From Anaerolineaceae bacterium (GTDB lineage Bacteria; Chloroflexota; Anaerolineae; Aggregatilineales; Phototrophicaceae), in NCBI GenBank assembly GCA_002699585.1, contig PABP01000014.1, positions 806,001 to 870,000 of the forward strand: 64,000 nt of DNA, read 5' to 3'. The notes under the pieces are model-generated. The model made no database searches, was not told the DNA's origin, and worked only from the letters and a program-made list of their open reading frames with translations. Below are positions 47,235-64,000 of this stretch, piece after piece. The stretch's first letter is position 1; each line of letters begins with the position of its first letter. The position numbers and the translations under genes are program-made.

Positions 47235-48323
47235 TTATCGCCCCACATTCTTCAGACCATTGCCCGTCAGCACCAGCACCAGCGATTCACCTGCTGGGAC
47301 CATGTCGCGCAACTGTGGCAGGGCGGCCAGCGTCACGGAACTGGTCGGCTCGGCGATGAACCCATGCTGCGCCAGGGTCGCCTGAGCGGACAGAATATCA
47401 CCTTCAGCCACGCGCAGGGCCGCGCCCGCGCTCTCCCGAATCGCCTCTAGCACTGCTTTCCCACGAACGGGTACTTTCACAATGATGCCGTCAGCTACCG
47501 TCGGCTGAACTTCATACACGGGTGGCACGTCCGCGCCGCTCTCCCAGCCGCGCACGACCGGGTCGCTGTTGGCTGCCTGGATCGCAAACAGGCGCGGCAC
47601 CCGTTCGATCAATCCGGCGTCTTTCAGCTTGGTGAACCCGCGCGCCAGTCCCAGGAACAGACCACCATGTCCCAGAGGCGTGGCGATGGCATAAGGCGCT
47701 TTGTGGCCCATCTGCTCGTAGAGTTCATAGGCGGCGGTCATCTGGCCTAGCAGGAAGTATGGACTCCATGCATGGCTGGCATAGGGTGTGGTCTCGGCGG
47801 CGCGTTCGCAGGCTTCGGTTTTAGCGTGCTGCGGACCCTCGACTTCCTCCAGAGTGCCGCCAAACGCCCGTATAAGGGCCTTTTTAGCCGGGGAGCCACT
47901 GGCAGGGACGAAGATACGCGAGCGAATGCCCAATGCGCTGCTATACGCCGCCACCGATGCCCCTGCATTCCCCGATGAATCCTCGACGACTTCGGTCACG
48001 CCCTGGGCGGCGATATGGTTGAGCATCGTCACCGTGCCACGATCTTTATAGCTGCCCGTCGGATTGAGGTATTCCAGCTTGAGGAACAGGTCACGTCCGT
48101 CGATGGTGACCTGGGCCAGCGGCGTCAGGCCTTCTCCCAGGCTGATGCGCTTTTCGACGGGCAGCATGGCCCCATAGCGCCATAACGAAAAATTGCCCCC
48201 GTCGATGGCATCAGCATCAAACGCGGACAATTCAACAAAATCAAGCGGACTGTGGCAGGCTGTGCAGCGCCAATCGAGCGGCTGTGCTTCCTGGCCGCAT
48301 TCAGTGCAAATGAGGGTGGTCAC
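47235..48323 (-). CDS. thrC: threonine synthase
   Basis: A 362-residue PLP enzyme that makes threonine from O-phosphohomoserine. A zinc-ribbon-like N-terminal CTECGQ...CTACHSP (residues 6-25) precedes the core. The PLP lysine is in NPTGSYKDRGTV and the phosphate loop in SSGNAGASVAAYSS; PTLAQHGFIAEPTSS lies near the end. It starts with GTG at 48323, because this overlaps the kinase stop as GTGA, while an upstream in-frame start would overlap the kinase gene by 46 bases. It is co-translated with the APH-type kinase. A second, receiver-fused threonine synthase is at 57442. The last residues end against the inverted-repeat region. Confidence 0.93.
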   Translation of the reverse strand: MTTLICTECGQEAQPLDWRCTACHSPLDFVELSAFDADAIDGGNFSLWRYGAMLPVEKRISLGEGLTPLAQVTIDGRDLFLKLEYLNPTGSYKDRGTVTMLNHIAAQGVTEVVEDSSGNAGASVAAYSSALGIRSRIFVPASGSPAKKALIRAFGGTLEEVEGPQHAKTEACERAAETTPYASHAWSPYFLLGQMTAAYELYEQMGHKAPYAIATPLGHGGLFLGLARGFTKLKDAGLIERVPRLFAIQAANSDPVVRGWESGADVPPVYEVQPTVADGIIVKVPVRGKAVLEAIRESAGAALRVAEGDILSAQATLAQHGFIAEPTSSVTLAALPQLRDMVPAGESLVLVLTGNGLKNVGR

Positions 48324-49300
48324 AGTAAGCTGATGCCTTTCATGTGGCTTTCTAACTCGGTCCAATCGTGTTCATCCTGCTCGGCATCATCTGCGCCGTA
48401 CAGGATGCGTTCCCCGAACTCGACCACTTCCTGCAAATCCCATTCGAGCTGGTAATAATGCAGGACGCGTGCGTCCATGTCGGGATAGTCCATCATGTTT
48501 TGATAGTTGTCCATCGCCATCGGCCACTGCCGCAGATGGAACAGATCGCGCTCTGGCGGGGCCATAATCGGCGCATCCCAGTCGATCAGGTACACATTGT
48601 CATCCGGGGAGACGATCACGTTGCCGCTGCTGGGGTCGCCATGACACAGCACGAAATTGTCGTTGAGGTCAGCGTCACTACGCAGCACTTTGGCCAACGC
48701 CGCGAACTGCGCCGCCATCTTCTTGAGCTTGGGATAGGCTTGTTGCAGCGCATCGACAGTTTGCTGCTGCCAGCGATTGAATGTGCTCTGGCCCTCTGCT
48801 GCCTGTATCTCGCGGAAAATATCGCCAAGTTTGCGCGCAAAGCGCAGCGAAAAACGCTCTACAGGTGGACGTTCATCGGCGTGTAATTTGCAGCGGTGCA
48901 GGGTCGCCACCAGCGAACCAAGCTTGCGTTGATGCAGGTCACTGAGCGTCATGTCATAGGCGGGCGTGCCCTCGATATACGGTACAACAATCGCGTCATA
49001 ATCGCCCAGGGTATTGATGTAGTCGCCGCTGGTCGCCCGCAGGGGCGGCGCACTAATCTGGCGGATGCCGTAGTCATAATACAGGGCCATATGCGTGTTG
49101 ATGATCTGCTGGGTAAAGCTGCCCCCGCATAAATCTGGCTGCTTCAACTTGAGCACGTAGGCGGCATCAAACGTGTGGATATGATAAATCCACCCGCATT
49201 CCCCATAGGGTAAAAAGCGTGCGCGCTCCGGTTTGATCTCGTAAAGCGTGACGAGCCAGCGCGCAAGCTGTCGCTTATCAATGTTGGCCTGTGTTTTCAT
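48320..49300 (-). CDS. APH-family small-molecule kinase
   Basis: A 326-residue kinase of the aminoglycoside phosphotransferase/choline-kinase fold. The catalytic loop is LCHGDPSSGNVIV with Asp as base, and the Mg-binding DFG-like motif is LIDWDAP. The N-lobe is shown by RFLPYGECGWIYHIHTFDAAYVLKLK, where the Lys binds ATP. Its stop overlaps the thrC start (GTGA). APH-fold homoserine kinases exist and would supply the substrate of ThrC, so that function is possible, but an APH-type drug or sugar kinase cannot be excluded. The ATG at 49300 has a TACAAT seven bases before it and no Shine-Dalgarno, so leaderless translation may occur. Confidence 0.82.
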   Translation of the reverse strand: MKTQANIDKRQLARWLVTLYEIKPERARFLPYGECGWIYHIHTFDAAYVLKLKQPDLCGGSFTQQIINTHMALYYDYGIRQISAPPLRATSGDYINTLGDYDAIVVPYIEGTPAYDMTLSDLHQRKLGSLVATLHRCKLHADERPPVERFSLRFARKLGDIFREIQAAEGQSTFNRWQQQTVDALQQAYPKLKKMAAQFAALAKVLRSDADLNDNFVLCHGDPSSGNVIVSPDDNVYLIDWDAPIMAPPERDLFHLRQWPMAMDNYQNMMDYPDMDARVLHYYQLEWDLQEVVEFGERILYGADDAEQDEHDWTELESHMKGISLL

Positions 49301-54743: not shown

Positions 54744-55925
54744 CTAGTTATCCGAGGGCCGGGGAATGTCTGTTGTGGGGTCGTGGGCCAGGATCTGCTC
54801 CAGCGCTGCCGGCGTGGGGTAGCCATTGATGCCTTGTTTAGCGCGGCCAATTGGGAAGGGGTCAATCGCCCCTGATGACGCGCCCATCATACGCTGAATC
54901 GCAATCATCTCCTGGGTGGTCAGGGTCGCCATGGTGCCTTGCTCGTTGTCATGCTCCTGCGTACCGAACGCGCGATGGAAGGCAATCCGCTGGAACTGTA
55001 CGCTGGCCATATTGGCCACAATCAGCGCATTGGGGTTAAAACCATGCGGCAGCAGGTCACGCTGACGGATGAGCAGAATGCTTGTTACCAGCAGGGCCGT
55101 ACCCAGCCATTGACCTGTCGTCAATGTCTCGCCCAGCACAACCGCCGCCAGGATCAATGCAACCGCGATTTCGGTAATGCCCAGGATAGCCGTCTGCATG
55201 CCGCCCAGGAACTTGACGCTGGCGAACATGGCCAGCCGGCTGAGCGCCGTCGTCAGGCCCAGCAGGGCAATCGGTACGATGGTGGCTTCAAACACAGGGG
55301 CGGTCATGGGTGGGCTGACGGCCAACCAGACCATCGTGACGACAACGGCCATTGTCGTCAGCGTATACAGCGTGAAGGTGAAAGCTGGCATCTCATACAG
55401 AATATACTGGCTGAGGATGACCGTCGCCGCAAACATGAGCGCATTGGCTAGCATCAAGCCCACGCCGAGCCAGTTCAATTGGCCGCCCAACCCGGTAATC
55501 ATGGTCAGTGCCGTCATCGCCATCAGCACGCGGACGAGGGTGCGTTTGTTCGCGCGTTGGCCGCCAATCCGCGATAGCAGCACGGCAAACGCCAGATACG
55601 AGCCATTAATCAACTGCACCAATGAGGCATCTAATAGTTCCAGACCGCCATAATAAAACAGCGACCCGATGCCATTGATGATCCCGATGATGATACAGCC
55701 CAATAACCCCGCCGGATAAATATAGATATAGCGCCGCAAAAACAGCAGATAAAAGCCCCACAGCAGCAGCACAGCCAAAATCGTACGCAGGGCAGCTACC
55801 GTAAAACCATCAGCACCAGCATCGATTGCCAGCTTGCCGAAGATAGGTGCCACGCCCAAAAAGAGCGGTGTCGCTAAAGCTGCTGTAATGCCACCGAGTT
55901 TGGACTGTTCGGATTCATGATTCAT
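54744..55925 (-). CDS. EamA/DMT-family transporter
   Basis: A 393-residue drug/metabolite-type carrier with ten helices (EamA, five plus five). The first half ends around LNWLGVGLM and the second around AILGITEIAVALILAAVVLGETLTTGQWLG, the EamA consensus. A 100-residue soluble tail past the last helix is not part of the family and has no recognised domain. RhtA, a threonine/homoserine exporter, belongs to this superfamily, so an amino acid export role is worth noting next to the receiver-fused threonine synthase. It begins 17 bases after the kinase gene stop, so the two are likely one operon. Confidence 0.9.
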   Translation of the reverse strand: MNHESEQSKLGGITAALATPLFLGVAPIFGKLAIDAGADGFTVAALRTILAVLLLWGFYLLFLRRYIYIYPAGLLGCIIIGIINGIGSLFYYGGLELLDASLVQLINGSYLAFAVLLSRIGGQRANKRTLVRVLMAMTALTMITGLGGQLNWLGVGLMLANALMFAATVILSQYILYEMPAFTFTLYTLTTMAVVVTMVWLAVSPPMTAPVFEATIVPIALLGLTTALSRLAMFASVKFLGGMQTAILGITEIAVALILAAVVLGETLTTGQWLGTALLVTSILLIRQRDLLPHGFNPNALIVANMASVQFQRIAFHRAFGTQEHDNEQGTMATLTTQEMIAIQRMMGASSGAIDPFPIGRAKQGINGYPTPAALEQILAHDPTTDIPRPSDN

Positions 55926-55942: not shown

Positions 55943-57250
55943 CTAATTGGCTATGTCAGGTGCAAAGTCAGGGCTTAGCTTGCGATTTTTCTGTGTCATG
56001 GCATCTGGGTGTTCAATCGGTAGCTCGACAAAAAATTCGCTGCCGGGCATCGCTTCTGGATCGTGACCGTCACTCTGGACCCAGATTTTACCTTGATGCG
56101 CTTCAATGATACCGTGACAGATCGATAGGCCCAGGCCCAATCCACCGCCACCAAAAGCGGTCTTGCTGGTCGAGTGCAGTTGAATATCCCCTGTGATGTG
56201 CATCCGCTTGAAGATGTTTGCCTGTTTTTCAGGCGCGATGCCAATGCCGGTATCGCGCACACTAAACTGGACTTTTTCTGTGTTATAGGCGCAGTTCAAA
56301 TAAACCTGGCCACCGTCCGGCGTGTATTTGATGGCGTTGCTCAGCAAGTTGTTGATGGCCACGTAAATCATCTCAGGATCAACATGGACCTGGGTTGGCC
56401 AATCATACTGACGGTAGCGCAGTTGAATGTTTCGTAATTGCATGGCTTGGCTGTAATTATTAACCACATTTTGGACCAATTCGGCCATATTGGTTTCGCG
56501 GATGTTGAGGTCAATGCGGTTGACGATGATGCGGCTGGTCGTCAGAATTTCTTCGACCACATCCTGCATACGATCGACCGAATCCGCCAGCCCGTGGAAC
56601 AGCATACGGGTATTCTCATCGGCGTCCATCAAGTTGTTGAGTTCGGGGGCGTCAATCAGCAGGCGCATATAGCCTGTGATGAGCGTCAGTGGCGTGCGCA
56701 ACTCGTGCGAGGCCAACTGGATAAAATCGTCTTTGGTGCGGTCCAACTCTGTGAGTTCACGGTTGCTATCTTCCAGATCCCGGATGCGGCCCTCAAGGCG
56801 GCTGACGACATCACGCAGATAGGCCATGCGCGCCATTTCGAGCTGGCCTGTATCGCTGACGACGCCATCACGGCCCCCATGCATAAAATACTCGACATGC
56901 TCAACGATTGTATGGGGATCAATGGGTTTGTCGATAAAGCCTGTGATACCGACGGCCAAGCTCAGGGCGCGTTCTTCCATCGTGATGTTATCGGACAGGC
57001 CCACAATCGGCGTATGGACGAAGCGGCGGTCAGACCGCAGCATGACGGCCAATTCACGCGCGGTCATATCTGGCAGGTAAATGCCCGTAATGACCATACT
57101 GGGGCGTTCCCGGCGGGCGATGTCTAGCCCATCGACAGCTCGGCGTGCCCCTAGCAAACGATATCCCGATGCCTTCAGGCTTTCATACAAAGTCCGAACG
57201 GCAATCAGATCGTCATCGATAATAAGAATTGTATGCGGACGATTAAACAC
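55943..57250 (-). CDS. hybrid sensor histidine kinase with a degenerate N-terminal receiver
   Basis: A 435-residue kinase with an N-terminal receiver-like domain (1-125), a coiled-coil link (140-172) and a HisKA-HATPase core. The phospho-acceptor His is His182 in QLASHELRTPLT. ATP motifs are intact: NNLLSNAIKYTPDGG (N box), VRDTGIGIAPE (G1) and GGGLGLGLSICHGI (G2). In the receiver the acidic pair IDDD and Lys108 (DKPID) are kept, but the Asp phosphorylation site is replaced by Gly56 (VITGIYLPDM). It is therefore a pseudo-receiver and may sense binding rather than phosphorylation. It starts with GTG at 57250. No membrane helix or signal: cytosolic. It is in an operon with the EamA gene downstream. 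Confidence 0.9.
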   Translation of the reverse strand: MFNRPHTILIIDDDLIAVRTLYESLKASGYRLLGARRAVDGLDIARRERPSMVITGIYLPDMTARELAVMLRSDRRFVHTPIVGLSDNITMEERALSLAVGITGFIDKPIDPHTIVEHVEYFMHGGRDGVVSDTGQLEMARMAYLRDVVSRLEGRIRDLEDSNRELTELDRTKDDFIQLASHELRTPLTLITGYMRLLIDAPELNNLMDADENTRMLFHGLADSVDRMQDVVEEILTTSRIIVNRIDLNIRETNMAELVQNVVNNYSQAMQLRNIQLRYRQYDWPTQVHVDPEMIYVAINNLLSNAIKYTPDGGQVYLNCAYNTEKVQFSVRDTGIGIAPEKQANIFKRMHITGDIQLHSTSKTAFGGGGLGLGLSICHGIIEAHQGKIWVQSDGHDPEAMPGSEFFVELPIEHPDAMTQKNRKLSPDFAPDIAN

Positions 57251-57370
57251 CGCAGTATCCAGTGTAAACTGACGAAAAGTTAAAAGCAGGATAGGTAAGT
57301 GGAGCCTACCTTATGTCCATTATAGGCCGGAATCGGCCTGAGTTTTCAGTCACAATACTTAAGAAATCAA

Positions 57371-57397
57371 ACATGCGACCTGTTCTGGGTCGCATGT
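57371..57397 (-). terminator. terminator after the threonine synthase-receiver gene
   Basis: ACATGCGACC pairs with GGTCGCATGT over a seven-base loop; the minus strand continues TTGATTTCTT. It separates the fused gene from the kinase gene by position, so the latter probably has its own promoter in 57251-57370. Confidence 0.7.
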
Positions 57398-57441
57398 CCA
57401 TGAGGTAATCATAATTCGATGTGTCAGGGGCTAAGTGGCGC

Positions 57442-59118
57442 TCAGTTCAGGCGTTGCATCAGGCTTTCGATCATCGACTCATCAATGAAAGAACCTTTTT
57501 GCAGGACCATTTCCGCATTCTCGTTAAGGTACTGCTGCTCGTGGACCGTCAATTCCTTGGCCGTTACCACCACCACCGGGATGTGCTGCAAGCTGGCGTC
57601 GGCCTTCAGGATTTCAATGACCTGGAAACCATCCACATCCGGCATCATCAGGTCCGTGATGACCAGATCAGGCTTGATGTCGCGTACCAGGTTTAGGCCA
57701 CTTGCGCCGTTTTCCGCCAGGTAGACTTCACAGTTTTCACGGGCATTCAAAATGCGGACCATCAGTCGGGCGGCAGCTTCATTGTCTTCCATGACCACCA
57801 CGCGCCGCAAATCGTCGCCAATGCGATGTACCACGCTGCTCAACTCGTCCATAGGGATGGTGTGCGTACGGGCCGTGTTGGACATATCGACCTGCTTTTG
57901 CCAGCGCTCTCCCAGGATGCGCTTTTCGACGGGCAGCGTATGGCCGGAAGCGTTGACGACCACCACGTCATCTGGTTTGATGATGCCTTTGCGCACCATG
58001 CGGAACAAACCCGCCAGCGTGACGCCTGTCGCGGGTTCGACGGAAATACCATCGTAGCGCGCCAGCATTTTAATCGCATTGAAGGCATCTTCGTCGGAAG
58101 CCGCCTCAAAGTGCCCGCCGTGCTCCTGCACATAATCCCAGAGAATTTCGTAAGCTCGGCCTGGGTTGCCCGTCGCCAACGTCACAATCACCGTGTCGGA
58201 TGTCTCTTTCGGGGTAGCGACCCGCTGACCGCGCTCGAAGGCTTCTACCATCGGCGCGCAGCCCGAAGATTGAATCATGCCGAATGAGGGCATCTTATCA
58301 ATCACCCCGAACTCCATCAATTCTTCAAAACCGTTGCCCACACCAATCGGTCCCAGGCCACCGCTGACCCCCTGTAGGTACCAGTCCGGCGCGCGCCACC
58401 GTTGGCCATTTTCCAGTTCATCGCCCAACTGCTCGGCGATCTCATAGGCCATCGTTTTCATGCCTTCGGTCGCCGCGACGCTCTTGATGCCTTTATCGAG
58501 GAAAATCTGTTTGTTCTTGGCAAAACTCGCCGCCAAGGCTTTGGTCTGGTCATACGTACCGGTCGTGCCGATGATTTCCGCGCCGTACAGGGCGGCTTCG
58601 CGCATTTTGTCATTGGGCGTCAACTGTGGGAAGAATGCCCACAGCTTGATGCCAGAGCGCGCGGCATAAGCCGCATAAGCGATAGCCACATTACCCGTGC
58701 TGGCGACAACCACCTCATCGATGTGCATTTCCGCCAGGGCACTGATCGCGACCGTTGCCTGTCTGTCTTTAAAGCTGCCCGTAGGTCCCTGGCGCTCATC
58801 TTTGATGTACAGGTTTTTTAAACCCAGGCTGGCCGCCAGCGCACGGCTCTTAATCAGCGGTGTGCCGCCTTCGCCCATCGTGATGATATTTTTGGTGTTG
58901 TAGATGGGCAACACTTCATGGTAGCGCCACAAGGTCTGTGGGCGCATTTTAAGTTCTTTGAGCCACGCACGCACGTCAAACCCACCGAAGTCATAGCGCG
59001 GCTTCATGATCGTTTCACCACAGTTTGCGCATTTACCTTTAAATGCGTACATGGGTGTCTCTGTGTGGCAGTACGTGCATTCTAGGTTGATGACTTTTCG
59101 TCGAGTATCGATGGTCAT
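57442..59118 (-). CDS. thrC: threonine synthase fused to a response-regulator receiver domain
   Basis: A 558-residue fusion in one unbroken frame. Residues 1-415 are a threonine synthase (PLP): zinc ribbon C14/C17/C30/C33, MGEGGTPLI, PLP lysine Lys117 in TGSFKDRQATV, phosphate loop ASTGNVAIAYAA, and the late EPATGVTLAG. Residues 437-556 are a receiver with the complete site: Glu444-Asp445, phospho-acceptor Asp489 in VITDLMMPD, Thr519 and Lys541. The linker is about 20 residues. Length of the enzyme part matches other threonine synthases. It lies between two kinases (55943 and 59319) and has its own terminators on both sides. Phosphorylation of the receiver could gate the enzyme; this is inference. 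A receiver on ThrC is not something I know from the literature. Confidence 0.93.
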   Translation of the reverse strand: MTIDTRRKVINLECTYCHTETPMYAFKGKCANCGETIMKPRYDFGGFDVRAWLKELKMRPQTLWRYHEVLPIYNTKNIITMGEGGTPLIKSRALAASLGLKNLYIKDERQGPTGSFKDRQATVAISALAEMHIDEVVVASTGNVAIAYAAYAARSGIKLWAFFPQLTPNDKMREAALYGAEIIGTTGTYDQTKALAASFAKNKQIFLDKGIKSVAATEGMKTMAYEIAEQLGDELENGQRWRAPDWYLQGVSGGLGPIGVGNGFEELMEFGVIDKMPSFGMIQSSGCAPMVEAFERGQRVATPKETSDTVIVTLATGNPGRAYEILWDYVQEHGGHFEAASDEDAFNAIKMLARYDGISVEPATGVTLAGLFRMVRKGIIKPDDVVVVNASGHTLPVEKRILGERWQKQVDMSNTARTHTIPMDELSSVVHRIGDDLRRVVVMEDNEAAARLMVRILNARENCEVYLAENGASGLNLVRDIKPDLVITDLMMPDVDGFQVIEILKADASLQHIPVVVVTAKELTVHEQQYLNENAEMVLQKGSFIDESMIESLMQRLN

Positions 59119-59235
59119 ATTTGCTTTCTTATGGGTCCCATTATGTTACATGGTAAAGCAACGCTCAACTAACAGGATCATATCGGGTCTTGGGTGTGTG
59201 TCCAATGCCTATGTGAACACATTGCCCCGTAACAC

Positions 59236-59318: not shown

Positions 59319-62300
59319 TTAGGTATTCATACTGAGATTGTCACGCACATCTGTTAGTAAATTGTCCAGCGCTTCCTGGCTGATGGTAGCTTTGTACAGG
59401 ATGCATAGGTCCTCGAGTTTTGCTTTCTGATCGGAATCCAGGTCCGTTTCGCTGGTCACGATAATGATCGGGATCGTCTGTGTCTCCGGGTTGGCGCGCA
59501 GTTCTTCCAGCACGGTGAAGCCATCCATTTCCGGCATCATCAAGTCCAGGATAATCAAGTCGGGTTGGCGGCGCGCGACCATCGAGATGCCTTCCCGGCC
59601 ATTATCTGCGCTGAATACGCGATAATTGCCATGTGCCGTCAGCAACTGCATCAACAGGCGGATGCTGTCGGGTTGGTCATCGATGATGAGGATACGCTCG
59701 CGTTGGCTTTCCAACTCGGCTTGTTTGACAGCTTCCAGCAGTTCATCGGGCATAAAAGGACGCTGTAGGATAGTATGCGCGCCCAGGCGATAAGCCCGTT
59801 CCGTCTCATCGGATAGGCTGGCGATCACTACCGGGATGTCAAAGGTATCGTCGCGCTCTTTCAACTGCTCCAGGATGTTCCAACCCTTACCATTGGCGAA
59901 GTTGACGTCCATCACAATTACCGTCGGGCGCAGATTGCTAGCCATCGCCTGGGCATAGGCGGCATGGTCGGCTGTGTAGACCTCGACCCCATCGCGTTGC
60001 AGCACTTTACGATACTGATCGACCATATTTTTGTCATCTTCGATCAGCAAAACATCGCGCTTTTGCGGTAGGGCGGGCATGTTATTTGGCGGTGTCAGCG
60101 CACTGCTTTTGCTAGCCTGCGTTTCTTTGCTGCCGTTGGCGCTTCCATTGTGGCCATTTGGGGCCGCTTCTTTAGGTTGTTGAGGCGCAGTCGGCTTTGC
60201 AGGCAGCTTGGTATCCATGACGGATTGTTTTTGTGTTTGTTCGCCTGGGCTGTCTTCCTCGTTTGCCTCATCCTCGTCAACGGGCTGCGTTGGAATCGTA
60301 ACGGTGAAGGTGGACCCGACATTGACCTCGGATGCAACAGTGAGTTCACCACCCTGTAGCTCTGCTAGCGATTTAGAGAGCGGTAGGCCCAGGCCCGTAC
60401 CGCCGACTGTCCGCGTCAAGGAGTTGTCAACCTGGCGGAATTGCTCGAACAAAATCGGGATGTCGGACTCGGCGATGCCAATGCCCGTATCAACCACATC
60501 AATGCGCACCAGGCTTTCGCCATTTTGTTCGATGGCATACGCGCGGATGGTGATGGAACCATCGTTTGTGAACTTAACGGCGTTGTTAGTCAGGTTGATG
60601 AGAATCTGGCGCGAGCGGAATTCGTCACCGAACGCCGGTGGCAAGTTCGGCGCAACTTCAACGCGCAAATCGACAGTTGGCTTCTCTTTCAGCAGGCCAA
60701 TCGTCATCGATTTGACGCTTTCCAGCATCGGCTTGATCTCGAAGTAATCCAGCTTCAGCGACATCTTATTGGCTTCGATCTTGGCCTGATCGAGGATATC
60801 GTTAATCAGGTTGAGCAGGTGGTTGCCGCTGTTATAGATCGTGGTCAGGTCTTGCTCCTGCATTTCCGTCAGCGGCCCGTCGATGCCTTTCAGCATCACA
60901 CGGCTAAAGCCAATAATGGAGTTCAGCGGCGTGCGCAATTCATGGCTCATCGCTGCCAGGAACTGGCTCTTCAGGCGGTCGAGTTCACGCAATTGCTCAT
61001 TGGATAGCTGGAGCTTCTCTACCAGCAGCGTATTCTGAATAACGGCTGCCAGCGAGCCGACCAGCGTAATCGTCAATTGCACAACCGCATCGTTAAAGGC
61101 TTTTGAACGCCGTGCCTCTAGTACCAGCACACCGACTAACTCCGAACCCGACACAATCGGGACCAGCAGCGCGCTGTTTGATTCTGGGTGGATGGGGACA
61201 TACTCAGAGTGCATTGCAATCCGGTTGATCACCATCGGCCTGCGCGTACCCGTCACCTGGACGATAGCGCGGGTGGTGTCATCCAGATTGATTTCTTCCA
61301 GTTCACTCAGGTCGTCACCATAGTTGACGCCTGCTGACGCCTTCAGGGTCATCAAGGCATTGCCTTCATAATCCTTGTATAACTGCGGCAGATAGATCAT
61401 GACCGTATCGACGTTCATCGTTTGCTGGACGCGCTCGCTGATCGCGTTTAGGGCGTCGTCCAGACTATCCGCAGATGCCGCCGTTGTCGTCATATCCAGC
61501 AGGAAGCTCATATCGCTGGCACGATGTTGGGCATCTTCATACAGATGAGCGTTGTCGATAGCAATGGCAATCTGGGAGGCCAGCGACGTCAAGACCTGGA
61601 TGTCATCTTCAATGAATGCGTTTGGCTCGTTCGACTGTACATCGAGCGCACCTAGCACCTTGCCTTTGGTCATTAGCGGCAGGGCCATTTCGGATCGTGT
61701 CAGTGGCAGGACTGGATTCGCGCGGTGTACGACGCTCGCATCTGTGGTATCCAGCGCAATGGTCGGCTCCGTGCTGGCTGTCACACGCCCAATCACGCTG
61801 TCGGAGCCTTTCTTGAGTTTATGGCCTTTGGCTAGTAGGGCTTCACCAGCCTGGCCGGTGCTGGCCTTGAGCAAGGCCCATTCGTCAGCTTCATCCATCA
61901 GGAAGATCTGAACGTGATCGTAGCTAAACTGTTTCTGAATCAGATCGACGACCTGCGGCAGCAACACGTTAAGGTCCAGCAGTTGGCTGGCGCGCTGGCT
62001 GATCTCCGCCGATGTCTGTAACTGGCGTGCACGCCGTTCGATTTGCTCAACTAGCCGGGATGCTTCCAAGGAGAGCGAGGTTTGTTCTGCAAACGACTGG
62101 AAAATACGCACATGCTGATCGTTGTAGTTAAATGGCTCGCGCGATCCAATCCACATCGCGCCCAGGCCGTGGCCACCCACACGCAGCGGCATGATGACCA
62201 CCGAGCGCGCATCCAGGCTTTCAATACTGGCCTGTTCCATTATGTCCAGGTCTAGGTTTTCGTCATAGATGTCAGCGATGGTGATAACCTGATCCGTCGC

Positions 62301-64000
62301 CAGAAGCGACCATGCCGGGAACTGGTCCGGTGTCAGCGTGACACCCGTTAGTTCGACATCGCCATCTGGCGACCAACTCGCCGCGATTTCTAATAAGCTG
62401 CCTTCCTCATCCCACTCGGAGCGCTCCAACACGGCGATGAACACCAGGTTTACATGTGGTTCGATCAGGTAATTGACGATGACATCCACAATCTCCTGGA
62501 CGTTATCGACCTCGATCAAGGCTCGGCTGGCCTGGTAGAGCGTACTGGTTTCGTTCAGCGTGCTCTGGATTTGTTGCAGCAGCATCTGATTATCCAATAC
62601 CACCGAGGCACTGGCTACGATGGTATTCATCAAGCGCCTGAAATCATTGCCGAAGGCGCGTGGCTCAGTATAGCCAATGATGAAACGCCCACTGGGCACG
62701 TCCTGCACCCGCAGATCCAATGCGACACAGGCGGCGATATTCTTGGTATTCAACAATTCATGGCCGATGGCGCCCAGTTCATCAAGTGCAATATCCTCAA
62801 TATAGAGGCCATCACGCGTATCCAGTGGCAGCGTAACCAGATGCTCCATATTCAGGCCATTTTCAATGCTTTCCTCAAACCCTTCAGAGGCCATTTGTAG
62901 GGTCTGCTCATCGGTATTATCTCTCAGGTAAATCGCATACATATCCGCATCCAGGCTGCGTAGTGTGTCCACGATGGCATCTGTCAGCGAGAAGGCATCC
63001 GTCGCCTGGTTAATATTGGTGGATGCATTGTAAAGTTGTGCCGTCTGATTCAGGGCGTTTTGTGTGCTGACCACCAACATGCGATTTTCCAGTGACGTAC
63101 TGGTGATGTCACTCATGGAGAGCAGCGCGCGTTCTTGTTCTGGTGTCAGGCTGTGGGATTTCTGGTTTGTGAGGACCAACCATCCCAACGGCATTTCGCG
63201 GCTGGTCGAGCGCATCGGCACGGCCAGCAAGCTGCCAATTTGCATCTCAGATAGCATCCATTCCATCTCTGGCGACAGATCTTCAAGGTCATCAGTATCG
63301 TTGATGCGCACCATATCATGCGGAGAGAACAGGCTCGCCAGTCGTTCAGGGTCAGGCACAGTCTGGATCATATCGCGGACGGATTCCAGTCGATTCTCGT
63401 TTTCGTTGTAAAGAATGACGTGGATGTCATCCGACTGTTGCAGCGACATATGGACCAGGATCGTATCCAGCAGTTCTTCGATGTTCCCCGCTTCGATCAT
63501 GGCTCGCTGCGCTTCATACATCGTGACAGTTTCGCGCAGGGTTTCCTGTAGCGTATTTTCCAGGTTACGGATATTGCTGATGTCCTGTAGTGCAATCACG
63601 ATGCCGCGCAAGTTGCCATCCGCGTTGGTGATAGGGGCAGCATTCATCAGCATATCAATGCGATAGTCATCGGTGATGATGGCGATGTCGTCGGTGGTCG
63701 TAGGTTCCTTTGTTTCCCTGGCGATATACAACGCCAACTCGTCAATCGGGTAGGGCATATTGGTGCCGCTGCGATACAGGTTGTAGACTGCCGGGTCAAA
63801 GGGCTTGTCCATCTCAACGGGACGTCGTAGCAGGTCTTCCGCCTGTCTATTGTGCTGCATCGGGATAAAGGTCTGCGGATCAACCACGATGACGCCTGTT
63901 GGCATTCTCGCCAGGATAGCGTCCAGGTTGCGGCGTTCATCTTCCGTCGCACTCAGCAGGGATTGGCGATCCAATGCCGACGAAAGCAGTGTCGCTGTTG
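59319..64000 (-). CDS. giant PAS/multi-GAF hybrid histidine kinase, N-terminally truncated by window edge
   Basis: The frame is open through base 64000, so the start is outside the window; about 1560 residues are visible and the first TTG at 63974 is not credible as a start. Counting from there: a PAS-like domain (about 12-140), five GAF-like domains (about 150-980), HisKA with the phospho-acceptor His in AAMSHELRTPLNS, HATPase with LTNNAVKFTNDG, DTGIGIAES and GGTGLGLPLS, a Pro/Lys/Ser linker, and two receivers. In the first receiver the Asp is in VIVMDVNF while the usual Lys is Arg (LQRPF); in the second the site is complete (LIILDLMMPEMDG, Lys in LYKATI). No membrane helix is visible. It sits 200 bases upstream of the receiver-fused threonine synthase and could be its kinase. 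Confidence 0.92.
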   Translation of the reverse strand, partial: TATLLSSALDRQSLLSATEDERRNLDAILARMPTGVIVVDPQTFIPMQHNRQAEDLLRRPVEMDKPFDPAVYNLYRSGTNMPYPIDELALYIARETKEPTTTDDIAIITDDYRIDMLMNAAPITNADGNLRGIVIALQDISNIRNLENTLQETLRETVTMYEAQRAMIEAGNIEELLDTILVHMSLQQSDDIHVILYNENENRLESVRDMIQTVPDPERLASLFSPHDMVRINDTDDLEDLSPEMEWMLSEMQIGSLLAVPMRSTSREMPLGWLVLTNQKSHSLTPEQERALLSMSDITSTSLENRMLVVSTQNALNQTAQLYNASTNINQATDAFSLTDAIVDTLRSLDADMYAIYLRDNTDEQTLQMASEGFEESIENGLNMEHLVTLPLDTRDGLYIEDIALDELGAIGHELLNTKNIAACVALDLRVQDVPSGRFIIGYTEPRAFGNDFRRLMNTIVASASVVLDNQMLLQQIQSTLNETSTLYQASRALIEVDNVQEIVDVIVNYLIEPHVNLVFIAVLERSEWDEEGSLLEIAASWSPDGDVELTGVTLTPDQFPAWSLLATDQVITIADIYDENLDLDIMEQASIESLDARSVVIMPLRVGGHGLGAMWIGSREPFNYNDQHVRIFQSFAEQTSLSLEASRLVEQIERRARQLQTSAEISQRASQLLDLNVLLPQVVDLIQKQFSYDHVQIFLMDEADEWALLKASTGQAGEALLAKGHKLKKGSDSVIGRVTASTEPTIALDTTDASVVHRANPVLPLTRSEMALPLMTKGKVLGALDVQSNEPNAFIEDDIQVLTSLASQIAIAIDNAHLYEDAQHRASDMSFLLDMTTTAASADSLDDALNAISERVQQTMNVDTVMIYLPQLYKDYEGNALMTLKASAGVNYGDDLSELEEINLDDTTRAIVQVTGTRRPMVINRIAMHSEYVPIHPESNSALLVPIVSGSELVGVLVLEARRSKAFNDAVVQLTITLVGSLAAVIQNTLLVEKLQLSNEQLRELDRLKSQFLAAMSHELRTPLNSIIGFSRVMLKGIDGPLTEMQEQDLTTIYNSGNHLLNLINDILDQAKIEANKMSLKLDYFEIKPMLESVKSMTIGLLKEKPTVDLRVEVAPNLPPAFGDEFRSRQILINLTNNAVKFTNDGSITIRAYAIEQNGESLVRIDVVDTGIGIAESDIPILFEQFRQVDNSLTRTVGGTGLGLPLSKSLAELQGGELTVASEVNVGSTFTVTIPTQPVDEDEANEEDSPGEQTQKQSVMDTKLPAKPTAPQQPKEAAPNGHNGSANGSKETQASKSSALTPPNNMPALPQKRDVLLIEDDKNMVDQYRKVLQRDGVEVYTADHAAYAQAMASNLRPTVIVMDVNFANGKGWNILEQLKERDDTFDIPVVIASLSDETERAYRLGAHTILQRPFMPDELLEAVKQAELESQRERILIIDDQPDSIRLLMQLLTAHGNYRVFSADNGREGISMVARRQPDLIILDLMMPEMDGFTVLEELRANPETQTIPIIIVTSETDLDSDQKAKLEDLCILYKATISQEALDNLLTDVRDNLSMNT

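Follow-up and report, generated by a model that had tools for sequence, protein, structure and literature searches.

Which reaction is catalysed by an enzyme that resembles threonine synthase and carries at its C-terminus a receiver of the two-component type, and what would the receiver do there? This question is raised by 64,000 nucleotides of the genome of an Anaerolineaceae bacterium (assembly GCA_002699585.1, contig PABP01000014.1, forward-strand positions 806,001–870,000), hereafter called the window, in the coordinates of which all features without another locus name are given. One gene of its minus strand (57442–59118) joins a four-cysteine ribbon, a threonine-synthase-like fold-type II domain dependent on pyridoxal 5'-phosphate (PLP) and a receiver in a single protein of 558 aa. 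In a preliminary description of the locus this protein was taken for a threonine synthase that responds to phosphorylation of the receiver. With slightly better than even confidence we read it as a response regulator with an enzymatic output. Its PLP enzyme belongs to a distinct threonine-synthase-like subfamily, has the look of a competent catalyst, would be controlled by phosphorylation and would make a product other than threonine, exported by a transporter of the EamA family encoded nearby.

The frame starts with ATG and runs without interruption; the plus-strand reading of the same positions is broken by stops. Pfam places the PLP fold-type II (PALP) domain, which is also formed in the AlphaFold model, at residues 79–392 (57943–58884, PF00291, E 9.4e-69) and the receiver at residues 440–542 (57493–57801, Response_reg PF00072, E 2.5e-19). 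Structure prediction for the whole protein, proposed as a check in the preliminary description, gave a mean pLDDT of 87.4 and a pTM of 0.80. Lys117 (58768–58770) belongs to the motif SFKDRQ and by homology should form the Schiff base with PLP; Cys14, Cys17, Cys30 and Cys33 (59020–59079) make up a zinc-ribbon-like motif, the zinc itself being putative; Asp489 (57652–57654) is the predicted phosphorylation site. Conservation was estimated in an alignment of 74 fusions, consisting of the window's own and 73 more; the latter were taken from 75 complete homologues found in a scan of named genomes (the best 80 of 536 relatives). Five of these 80 loci (L121, L130, L157, L161 and L163) were dropped for want of a complete open reading frame (ORF) of the fusion, and L151 and L152 were omitted because their ORF coordinates are identical to those of L149. 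Lys117, Asp445, Asp489 and all four cysteines proved to be invariant (74/74). Glu444 is also found in all aligned fusions, and Asp stands at position 444 in a branch of fusions with two receivers. Position 519 is occupied by Thr in 67 and by Ser in 7 sequences, and Lys541 is preserved in 73. The catalytic and receiver residues named in the preliminary description (K117, E444, D445, D489, T519, K541), as well as the cysteines, are thus where they were said to be and are conserved. Comparison of two species of the genus gave dN 0.086 and dS 1.56 for the PLP part and dN 0.146 and dS 2.26 for the receiver part, i.e. a dN/dS of about 0.06 for each half, as expected under purifying selection. Since synonymous sites are near saturation, we claim from these values strong constraint on both halves and nothing beyond it.

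An unusual architecture can always originate from chance read-through, a frameshift or a chimeric assembly. Here the probability of such an origin is practically nil, since the same unbroken frame was registered in many independent assemblies, so that splitting of the frame by a sequencing error is ruled out. The fusion (in a few assemblies, a fragment across the joint) is present in 53 of 61 related genomes up to the level of order, a sample composed of the own genome, one from the genus, 35 from the family and 24 from the order. Of 150 genomes sampled across the class 44 have it at E 1e-100 or better, including the own genome and six others of its order, and of 301 sampled across the phylum 34 have it at E 1.3e-146 or better, seven of the 34 lying outside the class. 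The order of PF00291 followed by PF00072, for which the preliminary description had advised a search, therefore recurs in many species, and a fusion isolated among its relatives was not what we found. In the phylum search fusions were matched through residue 552–558, while single-domain homologues had E-values of 7.3e-67 or worse and matches ending at about residue 392–404, in one case at 433; among the four candidates scored per genome no listed match fell between 1.3e-146 and 7.3e-67. This clean gap, together with the recurrence, led us to reject the frameshift and the chimera. Among these four candidates per genome none was a member of this PLP subfamily without a receiver, though one of lower rank could have been missed. 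In a tree obtained by a quick method the PLP domains of 42 hand-chosen fusions were separated by one branch from 18 single-domain homologues (SH-aLRT 99, stem of 1.43 changes per site); long branches lead to four of the 18.

According to NCBI lineage, 78 of the best 80 of 536 relatives belong to Chloroflexota, 50 of them given as Anaerolineae, and the record titles include Aggregatilineales, Anaerolineales and Ardenticatenaceae. Two records bear foreign names, “Bacteroidetes bacterium” (L108) and “Pleurocapsa minor” (L130); their contigs resemble the lineage of the window and are probably mislabelled metagenome bins. A second branch of fusions, with 43–47% identity, consists mostly of proteins of about 700 aa with two receivers. 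Still longer variants occur in one family (812 aa at L214 of genome G188 and an open frame of 1784 aa in G438:C350); they have a second receiver and extra N-terminal sequence, which may partly reflect the choice of start codon. Six of the eight fusion-less genomes among the 61 are 2.6–3.7 Mb in size and gave 15–21 candidate matches, versus 48–174 in genomes with the fusion, and were therefore taken to have few receivers. A mobile origin was also considered and rejected: 914 plasmid records matched, and at no single place in them was 80% of the query covered; no relative was encoded by any of the 12 viral stretches that contained a pattern.

A clue to whether the attached enzyme makes threonine is given by the stretch NS[VL]N..R.EGQKT, which is common to the threonine synthases with solved structures (Thermus, Aquifex, M. 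tuberculosis, B. subtilis, Arabidopsis). Residues N154, S155 and R160 of the Thermus enzyme, located in it, are those which we take to hold the phosphate of the substrate. In our alignments residues 208–222 (58453–58497) stand in place of this stretch, and they read D-[RKQ]-G-[IVL]-[KR]-x...E-[ASG]-M-[KT]-T with Asp208 invariant. NSVNP or NSLN was found in none of the 74 fusions, the equivalents of all three Thermus residues are replaced in every one of them, and SFKDR is followed by Gln in all 74, versus Gly in the solved threonine synthases. A proper ThrC is encoded elsewhere in the same genome (G000:C35:489849-491135); it keeps the stretch of the solved enzymes, with NSVNPFRLEGQKS, scores 258 bits with TIGR00260 and adjoins a homoserine kinase gene (thrB, 331 bits). 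The fusion of this genome has no threonine-pathway context, its immediate neighbours being two kinases and the EamA carrier. Because the substrate stretch is replaced throughout and a separate canonical ThrC lies beside homoserine kinase, we do not name the fusion ThrC. Judging by these sequence features it is probably a threonine-synthase-like enzyme with a specificity different from that of threonine synthase, and the role in the threonine branch ascribed to it before is not supported. In relatives the picture is similar: the proper ThrC was found in 51 of the 61 genomes and coexists with the fusion in 44, i.e. in 44 of 53 fusion bearers, and seven of the eight genomes of the order without a detected fusion retain a stand-alone thrC (the eighth, G055, is 80% complete and shows neither).

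Several facts nevertheless weigh against a new specificity and favour a genuine threonine synthase regulated by phosphorylation, the phosphate site of which may be altered. The fusion scores 177.5 bits with the thrC equivalog model of NCBIfam (TIGR00260), above its cut-off of 167.1, though fusions from other genomes fall on either side of it. The best matches in both sequence and structure are threonine synthases: those of Thermus (1UIM/1V7C), Aquifex (2ZSJ), M. tuberculosis (2D1F) and B. subtilis (6CGQ) share with the fusion the PLP fold, the lysine in SFKDR and the STGN loop, the identity of solved enzymes being about 29–34% over some 310–380 aligned residues, and the highest structural Z to the model, 41.5, belongs to the Arabidopsis enzyme (2C2B). 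Fusions are not alone in departing from the exact motif, since 14 single-domain homologues from Chloroflexota that were compared also vary in it; their variants are N-x-N-x-R..EGxKT or ST-x-REPYR.EGKKT, with Arg retained in both. Basic residues 209 and 212, next to the replaced motif, are conserved in most fusions and might bind phosphate in another way. Finally, nine fusion-bearing genomes lack the proper ThrC at E 1e-80. Two of them (G037 and G044) have another stand-alone thrC of more than 300 bits, which leaves seven of 53 bearers without a clear canonical thrC; five of the seven are less than 90% complete, and five hold another thrC-like gene above the cut-off. The motifs of thrC-like loci were checked with a regular expression, the frame being missing at 3 of 15 loci and the motif output for several more. 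Against all this stand the replacement of the presumed phosphate ligands in every fusion, the thrC that adjoins thrB in the same genome and the retention of stand-alone thrC where the fusion is missing, so that a true threonine synthase appears to us rather unlikely.

Two other ThrC-like genes of this genome deserve mention. The one at 47235–48365, situated directly downstream of a phosphotransferase-like gene (the latter recognised by eye), had been suggested as a source of basal threonine synthase activity; it gives 126.3 bits with TIGR00260, below the same cut-off, has no NS..R stretch, and was rejected in this role. The other paralogue (L003, G000:C23) has SLKDRAS and RNTGVNPYTTEGKKT; its score with NF006050 is 302.8 bits, just below the cut-off of 303, and with TIGR00260 it reaches 194.1, above the cut-off.

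The fold-type II scaffold is shared with enzymes acting on other substrates, and the output domain might belong to some known dehydratase, lyase or beta-replacement enzyme supplied with a receiver, for instance a cysteate-synthase-like one using phosphoserine. Cysteate synthase CapA2 (9k3c), a related PLP enzyme with another substrate, is indeed among the best structural matches of the model (Z 39.1, 3.0 Å, 399 residues), and this long match includes the N-terminal part. With TIGR03844, however, the fusion scores 117.6 bits versus the required 324.9, far below the family cut-off, and CapA2 has no receiver. We consider this assignment quite improbable.

If the product is not threonine, its fate may be hinted at by the genomic context. 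Downstream of the fusion there are a kinase gene (55943–57250) and, starting 17 nt after it, the gene of an EamA/DMT-family transporter recognised by Pfam (54744–55925), both on the minus strand; upstream, on the same strand, lies a hybrid histidine kinase (its part within the window being 59319–64000). Recurrence of this order was estimated in two sets of neighbourhoods. The first contained 76 loci (the own and 75 named), some of which are near-copies, and the EamA cluster was defined in it by BLAST similarity, with Pfam applied to the member from the window. The second set represented more distant families by 20 loci, 19 of them with a complete fusion (L216 was dropped), and EamA genes were sought by phmmer with the protein of the window. 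A same-strand kinase immediately upstream of the fusion was registered at 55 of 75 scorable loci of the first set and at 18 of 19 loci of the second, and 54 of the 55 immediately upstream kinases have an H-box. A same-strand kinase not more than two genes downstream was found at 46 of 74 loci (first set). EamA genes are located within three genes downstream of the fusion at 46 of 74 and 13 of 19 loci, respectively, and in the second set all 13 EamA genes detected were these neighbours. The transporter is therefore a recurrent partner, and the upstream GAF kinase, the PLP-enzyme-receiver and the EamA carrier form a recurrent unit.

This linkage has its limits, which count against the reading that we favour. 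The upstream kinase, the downstream kinase and EamA are all present in just 28 of 66 scorable loci. Among 15 hand-picked loci of the two-receiver branch the EamA cluster was not found within three genes downstream in any case, and a same-strand upstream kinase was found at 8. Gaps of 200 and 191 nt flank the fusion gene in the window, and a terminator-like hairpin of 13 pairs is located at its 3' side (57368–57400, minus strand), so that the gene may have a transcript of its own; the count of such hairpins in the region is not above that in shuffled sequences. At the 5' side there is a weak sigma-70-like promoter match (10/12, 59177–59204, minus strand). EamA carriers need not be exporters, and the one from the window gave 20.6 bits versus a cut-off of 230.2 with the sole NCBIfam model of amino-acid transporters that it matched. 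The composition profile of the window contained nothing notable.

The two-receiver branch has an environment of its own. A HisKA-type downstream kinase was found at none of its 15 loci; our screen was of the HisKA type and misses HisKA_3, and at L058 a kinase of the latter type was confirmed to lie downstream of the fusion. A gene of the GNAT cluster lies within four genes of the fusion at 8 loci. In genome G170 a GNAT gene is situated two genes above the fusion. A solo receiver stands directly downstream of the two-receiver fusion at 11 loci, and at many loci of the first set kinases lie on both sides, which implies multi-receiver circuits. Such circuits would suit a protein in which the enzyme-like domain is a sensor that binds an amino acid or a PLP adduct and tunes the lifetime of receiver phosphorylation, the whole serving as a phosphate sink or adaptor shared by neighbouring kinases. 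Ligand binding would not require such complete conservation of the PLP lysine and its surroundings, and linkage with a transporter points to a metabolite; we regard a sensor or sink of this kind as unlikely.

For the response regulator with an enzymatic output, which we prefer, a donor of phosphate is required. The fused receiver has the acidic pair, the phospho-accepting Asp, Thr/Ser and Lys, and a kinase is encoded nearby. Within loci having at least two other kinds of receivers, the fused one is closest to the terminal receiver of the upstream kinase in 38 of 53 cases. Mean identity to the fused receiver was 36% for this terminal receiver (43 loci), 26% for the first receiver of the same kinase (50 loci) and 30% for that of the downstream kinase (45 loci). 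In the own genome the terminal receiver of the upstream kinase is also the best non-self match (35%, E 2.5e-18; the next has 5.2e-14). Within-locus identities were used because the columns available for a tree of receivers were too few to show where the fused one came from. Such similarity is compatible with, and does not prove, either recognition of the fused receiver by the upstream kinase or its origin from this kinase. Since both halves of the fusion are conserved, the gene order is conserved and the likeness of receivers agrees with it, control of the PLP enzyme through the fused receiver by a neighbouring kinase, as a likely donor, is a supported inference; this part of the preliminary description stands.

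The kinases themselves turned out to be only partly as described. Both are present, and the downstream one, a protein of 435 aa composed of receiver, HisKA and HATPase domains (Pfam), has no hydrophobic stretch comparable to those of the upstream kinase, in line with its supposed cytosolic location. The upstream kinase, of which the window contains the C-terminal part with PAS and GAF domains, HisKA, HATPase and two receivers (Pfam), is not cytosolic: the window cut its frame, and the full-length protein of 2762 aa (L071:9320-17608) has two likely membrane spans outside the window. Its strongest hydrophobic stretches are at residues 31–49 and 339–357, four weaker ones follow further on, and between the two spans there is a weak dCache match (153–323, E 8e-4), under the Pfam cut-off. 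In the receiver of the downstream kinase the phospho-Asp is replaced by Gly, and in the sister species by Ser, whereas 42 of 45 homologous receivers have Asp; judging by this comparison the receiver appears to have degenerated recently in this genus.

Additional sensory genes were observed upstream of the kinase, beyond the end of the window. At L196:11680-19176 four consecutive same-strand genes of this genome, upstream of the hybrid kinase, encode GAF proteins that have predicted membrane spans and lack Pfam kinase domains, the one adjoining the kinase having HAMP, and the same similarity cluster recurs upstream at many related loci. At L206:13923-14711 a gene of a ParA/MinD-type ATPase (Pfam on this member) separates the kinase gene from that of a GAF sensor; 10 members of the ATPase cluster occur at loci of other families of the class.

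That the fusion is kept beside a sensor kinase, and often beside a transporter, suggests that the sensor switches the making and export of a metabolite. The sensor array and the membrane-anchored upstream GAF hybrid kinase, possibly with participation of the small downstream kinase, would control phosphorylation of Asp489, as gene order and receiver similarity lead us to infer. Phosphorylation may then change the activity or the oligomeric state of the attached PLP domain, by analogy with other response regulators. The domain would make a small product of amino-acid type, presumably not threonine, and the neighbouring EamA carrier would export it, a link drawn, like the first one, from gene order and sequence. 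A bolder version, which we find possible and still doubtful, is that Chloroflexota possess here a widespread two-component unit of a sensor kinase, a receiver-gated PLP synthase of new specificity and an EamA exporter, the output of which is an exported amino-acid-like signal. If so, a phosphoryl signal would directly yield a metabolite outside the cell, with no transcription factor in between.

Compared with known systems, the fusion differs from solved threonine synthases not only by the stretch replacing NS[VL]N..R.EGQK and by R-Q where they have R-G after the lysine motif, but also by the fused receiver and by the kinase/transporter context instead of thrB. Allosteric control of a fold-type II synthase has a precedent in the Arabidopsis enzyme, which, according to PMC9081730, is activated by S-adenosylmethionine, that is, by a ligand rather than by a receiver. 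According to PMC5847659, both bacteria and archaea have receivers fused with metabolic enzymes, the archaeal ones being narrowly distributed. Against this class the present fusion stands apart by its PLP enzyme and by its occurrence in several families of one class and some genomes outside it. A receiver fusion of a PLP enzyme or of threonine synthase is not described in the literature that we searched, in which most subscription papers and the main reviews were outside coverage. The general kind, receiver plus metabolic enzyme, is thus known; the output enzyme, the breadth of distribution and the transporter linkage look new.

Most response regulators act on DNA or second messengers. In this family of Chloroflexota proteins an amino-acid-type PLP enzyme is conserved under a receiver, which makes it a case in which post-translational control of a small-molecule enzyme by a two-component system can be tested. 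The thrC model would label the subfamily threonine synthase, and this is a warning for annotation of the threonine pathway in Chloroflexota, where behind such a label there may be an enzyme specificity awaiting discovery.
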